Shown one piece after another: positions 2,170-26,923 of a DNA stretch of 35,439 nucleotides. Location: positions 1-35,439 of the forward strand of contig MUIB01000051.1 of NCBI GenBank assembly GCA_002084135.1. The letters are read 5' to 3'. The notes beneath the pieces are model-generated. The model made no database searches, was not told the DNA's origin, and saw nothing but the letters and a program-made list of their open reading frames with translations. The DNA comes from Spirochaeta sp. LUC14_002_19_P3 (GTDB lineage: Bacteria; Spirochaetota; Spirochaetia; DSM-2461). Within the stretch, counting starts at the first letter, position 1. Every line of letters begins with the position of its first letter. Both the position numbers and the translations under genes were made by a program.

Positions 2170-3411
2170 ATGAAAAAAATGCAATTTTTCACCCATAAAA
2201 ATGGGCTTTTCGGATGTATGGCAGGAATAGTTCTGCTGATCGTGGGATTAACCGACTGTTCGCAGGGAGATAACCCCACTCCCTCTGCCTTTTCTGCCGT
2301 TTTTAAGGATGGAACCGGAGGGGTTGATGGGCTTGATGCTGCCCAATCTGTGGCTGTAAGTAAGGATGGGAAAAATGTCTATGTAACAGGAGGCTTGGAT
2401 AATGCCTTGGCGGTATTTACCCGCGATACCAGCACCGGGTCCCTTACCTATTCTACTGTTTTTAAGGATGGAACTGGGGGAGTTGATGGGCTGGGTGATG
2501 CTGTTTTTGTGACTGTAAGCCAGGATGGGAAAAATGTCTATGTGGCAGGTTATGGTGAAAATGCCCTGGCGGTGTTTAATCGTGATACCAGCACCGGGGA
2601 ACTTACGTATTCTGCTGTAATCAAGGATAACGATGCCCTTACAGGTGGAGGAAATGTTGATGGGCTAGAGGGTGCTACTGCTGTGGCTGTAAGCCAGGAT
2701 GGGAAAAATGTTTATGTGGCAGGTAGAAGCGATAGAGCCTTGGCGGTGTTTACACGCGATACCACCGGAGCCCTTACCTTTTCTACTGTTTTTAAGGATG
2801 GAAGCGGAGGGGTTGATGGGATAAATGGTGCCAGTTCTGTGGTTGTAAGCGAGGATGGGAAAAATGTCTACGTGGCAGGTTCTGATGATAATGCCCTGGC
2901 GGTGTTTAATCGTGATACCAGCACCGGGGCCCTTACGTATTCTGCCGTAATCAAGGATAACGATGCCCTTACAGGCGGGGGAAATGTTGATGGGCTGGAG
3001 AGTGCCCGATCTTTGACTATAAGCCAGGATGGGAAAAATGTCTATGTGGCAGGATCCCTTGATAGTGCCTTGGCGGTGTTTAATCGCGATACCAGCACCG
3101 GGGTCCTTACCTTTTCTACTGTTTTTAAGGATGGAACCGACGGGGTTGATGGGCTGGATGGTGCCTGGTCTGTGGCTGTAAGCGAAGATGGGGAAAATGT
3201 CTATGTGGCAGGATGGGAAGATAATGCCTTGGCGGTATTTACCCTCGATACCAGCACCGGTGCTCTTACGTTCTCTACTGTTTTTAAGGATGGAACCGGA
3301 GGAGTTGATGGGCTATTTCGTGCTTCTTCTGTGGCAGTAAGCAAGGATGGAAAAAATAGCTATGTAACAGGTTATTTGGATGATGCTGTGGCTGTATTTA
3401 CATGGAAATAG
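2170..3411 (+). CDS. lactonase/YncE-like beta-propeller protein, probable lipoprotein
   Basis: 413 aa; signal peptide with possible relaxed lipobox LTDC; seven ~50-aa repeats of the type DGKNVYVAG..NALAVFxRDTSTGxLTxS. Confidence 0.8.
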   Translation: MKKMQFFTHKNGLFGCMAGIVLLIVGLTDCSQGDNPTPSAFSAVFKDGTGGVDGLDAAQSVAVSKDGKNVYVTGGLDNALAVFTRDTSTGSLTYSTVFKDGTGGVDGLGDAVFVTVSQDGKNVYVAGYGENALAVFNRDTSTGELTYSAVIKDNDALTGGGNVDGLEGATAVAVSQDGKNVYVAGRSDRALAVFTRDTTGALTFSTVFKDGSGGVDGINGASSVVVSEDGKNVYVAGSDDNALAVFNRDTSTGALTYSAVIKDNDALTGGGNVDGLESARSLTISQDGKNVYVAGSLDSALAVFNRDTSTGVLTFSTVFKDGTDGVDGLDGAWSVAVSEDGENVYVAGWEDNALAVFTLDTSTGALTFSTVFKDGTGGVDGLFRASSVAVSKDGKNSYVTGYLDDAVAVFTWK

Positions 3412-23922: not shown

Positions 23923-24198
23923 ATGCAGATAATCAATGTCAGGGTAATCCCAAAGGCTAAAATTCAGACAGTAAAAAAGGAACTCCATGAGGATGGGATA
24001 CTCTACCGTGTCTATGTTACGGCCCCTGCTCAGGATGGCAGAGCCAACAAGGCGGCAATAGAACTGCTGGCACACGAGATGGGTGTTGCCAAGTCAAAAA
24101 TATCCATTATAAGCGGGCAGCATTCACGCAGCAAGAAAATACGCATCGATCCCTGGAAAACAAAAATATCCCCTCCGTCTACTAGACGATACGGCTGA
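23923..24198 (+). CDS. DUF167 (YggU-like) family protein
   Basis: MQIINVRVIPKAKIQTVKKELHEDGILYRVYVTAPAQDGRANKAAIELLAHEMGVAKSKISIISGQHSRSKKIRI. Confidence 0.9.
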   Translation: MQIINVRVIPKAKIQTVKKELHEDGILYRVYVTAPAQDGRANKAAIELLAHEMGVAKSKISIISGQHSRSKKIRIDPWKTKISPPSTRRYG

Positions 24199-24199
24199 A

Positions 24200-26923
24200 T
24201 TGTCGGAAAATGCAGCCATGGTACAAAAAGAAACAGTAAGCATTCTCCCTGGCCGATTTCAGCATCTGCCTTATAATTCTGTTCATGAGGCCGTGAAAGG
24301 CAAACCTTCCGCAAGAATTATCGCAGACGATATAGTCTGGACATGCAAAAAGACCGATGGGAAGTCGGATGCCAAGTCTGCTGAAGACTCAAAGAACAGC
24401 TGGAGCTTCCAATTCAAGGTGCTTGAGGATCATCTTGACGACGGCCCGGTTATCCTGCGATTTGACAATTTACCCAGTGCCATGGATATTTCAGTCAACA
24501 GCAGTGAAATCGGTTGCTTCCCCGCTGACTTTGTTCCCGTAGAGCTGAACATTAAGCCCTTCCTGAAAACCGGAGGCAATGAAATTATCCTGAACGAAAT
24601 CCCGGCTTCTGGAAAATCCGGGGAACAGACGGAGCCGCTACACCTGCCGACAAAGCTGATTGTCTTTCCCCCTGGAGGATTTTTGGACATTTCCATATCA
24701 TGTCAATTCGATGGTACCTGCCTGGATGCCCAGCTTAAAGTACGGTGTATTCTGGATGGCGGGACAGCCGTGGAGGGTGAAAAACGGACGCTGTGCTGGT
24801 ATTTGTACGAGCCGGGCTCACCGGATATATACGCCTCCAGCGATCCGGTTTCGGTAACTTTTGACGGACAACACAATCCCTCAATTTCCATGAACGGCTG
24901 GATACATGAACCCAGGCACTGGACTGCTGAATCCCCATTTCTCTATAACATTATAATAGAAATGATCGACGACATAGGCGTTGTTAAGGATGTGCGCTCC
25001 ATGGCATGGGGGTTCCGCCAGTTTACCCTCCTCAACGGCCTTGAAGGTGGAATGCTTATGCTTAATAACGAGCCTGCCACCCTCCTCGGTTGCAGACAGC
25101 CCGCCCCCCCGCGGGAGATGAGCCTTAAAGAGCTGGAAACCGGTCTTCTGCTTATGAAGCGGCTGAATATGAACACCCTGCAATGCTCCCATCAGCCCTT
25201 TTCCGAAGCCCTTTATCAGATTGCCGACCGGATTGGCCTGTATATCTTTGAGGAAATTACCGCCGATGGCGGGGATGAAAGCACCGTTATGGAATACCTG
25301 AAAACAGTGATAAGAAGCCGCCGTACCCATCCATCTATTGTCGGCTGGATTATCAGAACCTCACCGCATACGGAGAAGCACCTGAAAGCACTCAAAAAAT
25401 CAAGCCTGGACAGCAGCCGTCTTCTTTGTATTCCAGGCAGTACCAACGCCGAGGCTTCAGATTTTTTCTTTTATCCGCCGTTGAATACCGATTTGGCGGT
25501 GCAACCGCAGAATACGCAGAAAATCGCCCCGCCAAAGTATCAGGACAAACCGGTAATTTTAAGAGCACCCGCCAACTCCCTGAGAAGTCATTTCAGCCCC
25601 TACACGGAACTCGCAAGAACTCAGAAAAACATTGCCGGAACAATCATTGAAAATCTTTATGCGGAAAACCTTTCCTTTGCCGGAGCCATGCTTACCCCCC
25701 AGCACAGACTCACTCCCGATGCGGCCGAAATTCAGGTTCAATTCTGTCCCGTTTCCATCGCCGCCATCGATTTGGAATACGGCAAAATCGCGTTAAGCAA
25801 TCATTTAACATTTAATCGGCTGTTCGACTATGAAATATACTGGCGGCTCCAGCGTAAAGGGGAAACAGCCGCCTCCGGCATGATATATCAGCCCGATACA
25901 GGCCCCGGTGAAAGCCGCCTTACTCATCTATTCAGAGACCTGAAAGCCTTTCCCGGCCGCGGAGAGGGTTTTCTAACCTTTATTGTGCGGGTAAAGGAAG
26001 AAAACACATGGGCAAAGGCCAGCCAGTCGGTGGGCAGAATGCAAATTCCAGTTCCAGAGAACTTAAAACCTTATCAGATATATAAGACTATCAGCGAACG
26101 GCCTTCAGAAGTGGCGGCCCCTCCCCCGGTGGAAAGTGTTCAGGAAGAGCCGCCGCACATTCCCTGGTCGCACAAGATTAGCGGTAGCGAGTTGCTGGCG
26201 GTAAGAGGTAAAATCGGCCTGCGCTTCAGCCTGAACACGGGCCTGCTGGAAGCCATGTACCTGGATTGGAGAAATTTTTTCACGCACGGATTTGCCCTGT
26301 GCGGCGATAATTTAGCAAAAGAGACTATACCGATTGCGTCAAGTAGCCATAAATTAAAAAACCATCCCGACAATCTGGAACTGCTGTTCAAGCTGAAAAG
26401 CCCGGAATTAACAGGCACAGCCGAATTCAGGGTAAATTTATACACCGACGGCCGCATTGCCGTTTTCCTGAAAGCCGCACCCGTTTCTTCCCGGCGGCTT
26501 ATCCTGTGTTTTGGCCTTCCATCCGAATACAAGCAGCTCATCTGGTATGGCTGCGGTCCCCACCGCGTGTATTCCAGCAGCCTTATGAGCGCCTCAGTCG
26601 GACTCCATACCTCAACCGTAGATGAACCGCTTCCCGAAAATCAGTCGTATGAAAACATACCCGCCTATGCGGGAGTGCGCTGGCTGGAACTGGGCGACGG
26701 CGGACATGCCGTCCGCATAAGCAGCCCGGAGACACCGATAAAAGGACGCATGAAAACCAAACAGCTTCCCCTCAGCTTCAACTGCTTCAAAGCCCAATTC
26801 CCCAACACCGGAGACTCAGCAGAAGGAGAAAATCATCCTCAGGAATACATTCAGGCTGTTTTGTACGGCAATGAATTATCCGGCAGCACCCAGGAACTGA
26901 AGTTTATTCTCTTGCCTGTATGA
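24200..26923 (+). CDS. LacZ-like glycoside hydrolase family 2 protein, probably catalytically inactive
   Basis: 907 aa; LacZ-like layout (PRHWTAESPFLYNIIIEM, GFRQFTLLNG, LLLMKRLNMNTLQCSHQPFSEALYQIADRIGLYIFEE, HPSIVGWI) but catalytic motifs are replaced; TTG start at 24200 or ATG at 24218. Confidence 0.75.
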   Translation: MSENAAMVQKETVSILPGRFQHLPYNSVHEAVKGKPSARIIADDIVWTCKKTDGKSDAKSAEDSKNSWSFQFKVLEDHLDDGPVILRFDNLPSAMDISVNSSEIGCFPADFVPVELNIKPFLKTGGNEIILNEIPASGKSGEQTEPLHLPTKLIVFPPGGFLDISISCQFDGTCLDAQLKVRCILDGGTAVEGEKRTLCWYLYEPGSPDIYASSDPVSVTFDGQHNPSISMNGWIHEPRHWTAESPFLYNIIIEMIDDIGVVKDVRSMAWGFRQFTLLNGLEGGMLMLNNEPATLLGCRQPAPPREMSLKELETGLLLMKRLNMNTLQCSHQPFSEALYQIADRIGLYIFEEITADGGDESTVMEYLKTVIRSRRTHPSIVGWIIRTSPHTEKHLKALKKSSLDSSRLLCIPGSTNAEASDFFFYPPLNTDLAVQPQNTQKIAPPKYQDKPVILRAPANSLRSHFSPYTELARTQKNIAGTIIENLYAENLSFAGAMLTPQHRLTPDAAEIQVQFCPVSIAAIDLEYGKIALSNHLTFNRLFDYEIYWRLQRKGETAASGMIYQPDTGPGESRLTHLFRDLKAFPGRGEGFLTFIVRVKEENTWAKASQSVGRMQIPVPENLKPYQIYKTISERPSEVAAPPPVESVQEEPPHIPWSHKISGSELLAVRGKIGLRFSLNTGLLEAMYLDWRNFFTHGFALCGDNLAKETIPIASSSHKLKNHPDNLELLFKLKSPELTGTAEFRVNLYTDGRIAVFLKAAPVSSRRLILCFGLPSEYKQLIWYGCGPHRVYSSSLMSASVGLHTSTVDEPLPENQSYENIPAYAGVRWLELGDGGHAVRISSPETPIKGRMKTKQLPLSFNCFKAQFPNTGDSAEGENHPQEYIQAVLYGNELSGSTQELKFILLPV

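Follow-up and report, generated by a model that had tools for sequence, protein, structure and literature searches.

How a gene for a LacZ-like protein could lose both catalytic glutamates and still run at full length is the question raised by this locus of Spirochaeta sp. LUC14_002_19_P3, which was analysed within a window (i.e., the whole stretch of DNA under study) of 35,439 nucleotides. Our analyses suggest that, in a single spirochaete lineage, a beta-galactosidase has probably turned into a pseudoenzyme. Few enzymes have been studied as much as LacZ. A sequence-only reading of the locus had described a LacZ-like architecture over 907 aa without stops; frame, length and quoted motifs are as it gave them, the 907 codons holding zero internal stops (Table 1). 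Pfam matches over the gathering score were obtained for Glyco_hydro_2_C, LacZ_4, Bgal_small_N, and Glyco_hydro_2, with 48.8 bits for the GH2 TIM barrel (the family against which that reading had proposed an HMM alignment), 42.7 bits for LacZ domain 4 and 32.6 bits for the Bgal small-chain domain, and these significant matches make the protein a GH2/LacZ homologue. In the PDB sequence set, E. coli LacZ is matched at about 1e-18, and the homology extends over most of the length with the same domain order. Judging from the letters, translation probably starts at the in-frame ATG 24218 rather than at TTG 24200. The upstream DUF167 (YggU) gene ends 19 bases before this ATG and the two genes are possibly carried on one transcript; promoter and terminator scans yielded no more than shuffled sequences did. 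A match to the DUF167 gene was found in no other searched genome of the same family and in only three more distant genomes. By codon position, the base composition of the LacZ-like gene resembles that of the window's other genes, if slightly flatter.

Table 1. Positions of the LacZ-like gene, its upstream neighbour and its altered or best-kept regions within the window.
Feature	Position	Strand	Remarks	Evidence
DUF167 (YggU) gene	23923..24198	+	directly upstream of the LacZ-like gene, same strand	
LacZ-like GH2 protein without catalytic residues	24200..26923	+	907 aa; 901 aa if ATG 24218 is the start	Pfam, PDB sequence search, Foldseek of alignment-based model
Domain 2 (bounds approximate)	24674..25039	+	no deletions; best kept; 49% identity to genus consensus; model confidence mostly >90	
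His357 loop (GVNRHDIHPRYGQ in genus LacZ)	25088..25120	+	shrunk to GCRQPAPPREM	
Mg2+ site region	25253..25276	+	EANVESHGLR (genus LacZ) replaced by EITADGGD, then 12-residue deletion	
Acid/base region HPSIVGWIIRTSPHTE	25328..25375	+	Ser388 at the Glu461 position of E. coli LacZ	
Nucleophile region KPVILRAPANSL	25547..25582	+	CEFA of genus LacZ (holds Glu537) deleted	
Domain 4 (LacZ_4)	25790..26056	+	kept second best, with 85% identity to genus consensus over one 20-column stretch	

Residues were called from an alignment of the LacZ-like protein with LacZ from E. coli and from its own genus, and are given in E. coli numbering. The acid/base glutamate, which the sequence-only reading had considered lost, is indeed replaced (E461 to S, N460 to T, i.e., Thr-Ser in place of Asn-Glu). 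That reading was also right that the nucleophile glutamate is absent, but it had taken this for a substitution, and E537 falls in a 4-residue deletion. The RHEHHP-type region, said to be changed to CRQPAPPREM, is the reduced His357 loop, with H357 itself in a deletion. All three sites are thus altered as claimed, but the extent of the loss was understated, since many more sites are gone. H540 is replaced by R, R388 by Q and W568 by E, and E416 and H418 are also changed; N102, N597, F601, and N604, like H357, lie inside deleted stretches; the D201 position, aligned to E, belongs to a rewritten stretch adjoining a 5-residue deletion. Among the stretches deleted are an N-terminal loop carrying Asn102, HDIH with His357, the loop that follows the Mg2+ site, CEFA with Glu537 and the Asn597/Phe601/Asn604 stretch. 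Of the principal residues checked for catalysis, substrate and metal binding, only H391 and Y503 survive, and the alignment places no other glutamate at the catalytic positions. Among the 109 LacZ compared, 107 have the acid/base glutamate and 108 the nucleophile (the remaining one ends at a contig end); both are present in 106, two being without the acid/base residue only (L022 and L116) and one being cut by the contig end. The protein accordingly carries neither the Asn-Glu motif with its acid/base glutamate nor the nucleophile glutamate that mark a LacZ enzyme, nor its set of Mg2+/Na+ ligands and galactose-binding residues, and its best score against the NCBIfam LacZ equivalog is 151.6 bits for a cut-off of 999. 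As the homologue of an enzyme with the catalytic residues lost, it answers the description of a pseudoenzyme. Wherever a motif is lost, translation in the two alternative frames gave no convincing LacZ match, so the motifs are not hidden by frameshifts.

The origin of the gene can be sought within its own genus, where LacZ occurs in seven of eight genomes, some copies being cut by contig ends; named records of the genus include the Olavius algarvensis spirochete endosymbiont, Spirochaeta sp. UBA2779, and other uncultured spirochaetes. The genus LacZ are 29-34% identical to the LacZ-like protein and 48-89% identical among themselves. In a tree including family and E. coli LacZ, the LacZ-like protein is nested in the genus clade (support 96/96), on a branch so long that its exact placement is uncertain: its terminal branch amounts to 3.06 changes per site versus 0.06-0.69 for the genus LacZ. 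The adjoining peptidase gene of the same contig also falls with the genus, on a branch of normal length (0.5 versus 0.12-0.59 in the genus), which indicates that the acceleration is specific to the LacZ-like gene and that the contig belongs to the host genome. By these comparisons the LacZ-like protein is a descendant of the LacZ of its own genus. A gene order shared with the lacZ of relatives was considered and rejected: lacZ adjoins pgi in at least three relatives, and this arrangement is absent at the LacZ-like gene, the pgi of the host lying on another contig without lacZ beside it. The conserved orthologues with the same losses that had been suggested as a check were not found: the protein itself, run against the GTDB genome collection, returned no relative, a scan with the alignment returned genus and distant LacZ with no second copy sharing the active-site losses, and a search of 199 related genomes yielded no orthologue with these losses. 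No second, active LacZ was found in the host assembly (1.95 Mb, 177 contigs, 77.5% complete).

Several of these observations would suit a decaying pseudogene whose frame is open by chance: the gene evolves very fast, it lies outside the pgi-lacZ arrangement of its relatives, no orthologue was found, most relatives have a larger genome assembly than the host, which has no active LacZ left, and a worm symbiont is among these relatives. Against this stands the absence of stops in 907 codons at a divergence that predicts tens of them. When 2.45 substitutions per codon are simulated, as fitted under neutrality, about 32 stops are expected; no simulated frame was still open at 0.3 substitutions per codon, and 5% were at 0.1. 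Decay would then fit only a very recent release from constraint (less than about 0.1 substitutions per codon), leaving the long branch and the loss of the active site unexplained. The dN/dS check proposed by the sequence-only reading points the same way: in a codon branch model giving the LacZ-like branch its own ratio, dN/dS = 1 is rejected (2dlnL = 76), a signal that comes partly from the time preceding catalytic loss, and the value itself is not estimable because synonymous sites are saturated. The protein alignment counts 20 deletion runs and 9 insertion runs, net, with no visible frameshift, and no relative showing frameshift decay was found. Nor are the losses random, as they fall on the active site. 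Well-conserved residues are kept at 19 of 87 positions near the catalytic residues (22%) versus 185 of 469 elsewhere (39%, p = 0.0016), and are deleted at 28 of 87 versus 75 of 469 (p = 0.0008), the opposite of the pattern in E. coli and family LacZ, where 76-79% are kept near the active site and 42-50% elsewhere. Windowed retention is uncorrelated with family conservation in the LacZ-like protein (rho 0.00), whereas the corresponding rho is 0.70-0.84 for seven other LacZ. The substitutions are compatible with the hydrophobic core: of the columns with a residue unseen in any relative, 51 of 79 hydrophobic ones but 70 of 227 polar ones took up a hydrophobic residue (p = 2e-7), a preference similar to that of E. 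coli LacZ. Taken together, the stop, dN/dS, indel, and hydrophobic-column results suggest that a fold-compatible protein has been kept after catalysis was lost. The stops, frameshifts, and dN/dS about 1 by which a pseudogene is recognized are not seen here, and protein-level constraint after the loss is apparent indirectly; because the searches returned no orthologue sharing these losses, it rests on one sequence, without a close orthologue, from one fragmented assembly. On the stop expectation, the codon branch model, the residues chosen at hydrophobic columns, and the clustering of losses at the active site, we regard decay as improbable and uphold the preference for a pseudoenzyme over a simple pseudogene: the LacZ-like protein is quite probably a kept pseudoenzyme without galactosidase activity.

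Fast change following the loss of an old function is compatible with a new one, and an enzyme might have built another active site in the old barrel or elsewhere, acting as a changed glycosidase or in an unrelated reaction. His391 and Tyr503 remain, as does a glutamate (residue 352) where barrel strand 3 ends, and GH2 subfamilies with a changed acid/base residue exist (PMC12243196). The recent subdivision of GH2 in question, however, describes the nucleophile as an invariant Glu, while reporting that the acid/base residue and other sites can be substituted (PMC12243196). Those subfamilies and L022 and L116 share with the LacZ-like protein a departure from the usual Asn-Glu motif, but they retain the nucleophile glutamate, whereas the LacZ-like protein has lost the nucleophile and most of the pocket. 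With the pocket-lining loops deleted and no new carboxylate pair suggested by the alignment, a new enzyme seems very improbable. In L022 and L116, which are LacZ-like, the changed acid/base motif reads WSLGAASGS and WSVGNSAGK, respectively. A pseudoenzyme might also bind sugar without cutting it, as a LacZ-derived lectin or sugar sensor. Inactive glycosidases commonly become sugar binders, e.g., the chitinase-like lectins, and the remaining His391 and Tyr503 line the galactose pocket. Yet replacement or deletion has removed Asn102, His540, Trp568, Asn460, Phe601, and Asn604, all of which bind galactose or its sodium ion, and the stretch around the Asp201 position has been rewritten; the original sugar site can therefore not be intact, and a sugar site would need to be elsewhere, so that we consider this sub-case unlikely.

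What remains of the fold bears on the kept pseudoenzyme and its possible role. AlphaFold2 with 32 aligned LacZ-type sequences gave a model of pLDDT 78 and pTM 0.78, best in domain 2 and with the barrel strands present as read from secondary structure, and all top PDB matches of this alignment-based model in Foldseek are LacZ (TM 0.77). A model without alignment was uninformative (pLDDT 36.5), which means that the predicted fold depends on homology as much as on the protein's own sequence. Over aligned columns, identity to the genus consensus is 49% in domain 2, 43% in domain 4, and 31% in the catalytic barrel, although the barrel is the best conserved domain among relatives. In another GH2 beta-galactosidase, residues around 648-748 (own numbering) are at the dimer interface (PMC12023411). 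The best-kept stretch of the LacZ-like protein (E. coli 664-721) falls within the part that broadly corresponds, a correspondence that is suggestive only.

Since the active site is lost while the outer scaffold is kept, selection probably retains the protein for a job other than sugar cleavage. The most likely role of this LacZ-derived pseudoenzyme would be non-catalytic, structural or binding; a structural or scaffold role in particular is quite possible, if short of probable. The sequence comparisons show that the catalytic and metal sites are lost, with several active-site loops deleted in frame, and that the reading frame and fold-compatible residues were retained through a degree of change that neutral decay would not survive. 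The folded shell, chiefly domains 2 and 4 on either side of an emptied TIM barrel, may then serve as a stable cytoplasmic binding or scaffold protein, probably forming an oligomer through surfaces retained from LacZ. It is tempting, if more tentative, to hypothesize that a bacterial LacZ lost its active-site loops selectively and so became purely structural, its non-catalytic domains and surfaces being what selection acted on, and that a fully emptied GH2 scaffold thereby took on a new role in uncultured spirochaetes.

Pseudoenzymes derived from other glycosidase families, such as the chitinase-like lectins and Klotho, are well known. They share with the LacZ-like protein a glycosidase fold that is kept, catalytic residues that are lost, and a constraint that continues; unlike the present case, which is a bacterial GH2 protein with the cleft loops removed, they belong to GH18 and GH1 and mostly keep the ligand cleft. 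Compared with LacZ-type GH2 beta-galactosidases (E. coli; L067, L069, and L070 of the genus), the protein is homologous over most of its length with a common domain order and is nested in the genus clade, but it has lost both glutamates along with almost all residues that bind substrate or metal, has active-site loops deleted, and is encoded by a gene that is not beside pgi. While pseudoenzymes as a kind are already known, it is unusual for a GH2 LacZ to be emptied and yet stay under constraint, and searches of open-licence papers returned no described GH2/LacZ pseudoenzyme. A natural LacZ with its shell kept and its active site lost shows which parts of the fold can serve without catalysis, and offers a natural loop-deletion set for the trade-off between stability and activity. 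Annotation by family only would mislabel it as a beta-galactosidase.

Another GH2-like barrel, at L149 3915-7079 (G000:C157), was examined as a second LacZ of the host and rejected, as it is a different protein with its motifs kept. This protein of about 1050 aa has a signal-like start and a barrel in which LLGNEN and FTEFG motifs are kept; its long C-terminal part belongs to no known family and resembles an outer-membrane beta domain. Its gene is followed by one with a Flg_new repeat, and a relative is encoded at G004:C219. Elsewhere in the window, positions 40-969 hold an Rpn-family-like ORF for a putative nuclease/transposase, of which a near copy lies on another contig of the host genome (L152 3-449), and positions 2170-3411 encode a lipoprotein-like beta-propeller with repeated NVYVAG..DNALAVF units, weakly like 6-phosphogluconolactonase.
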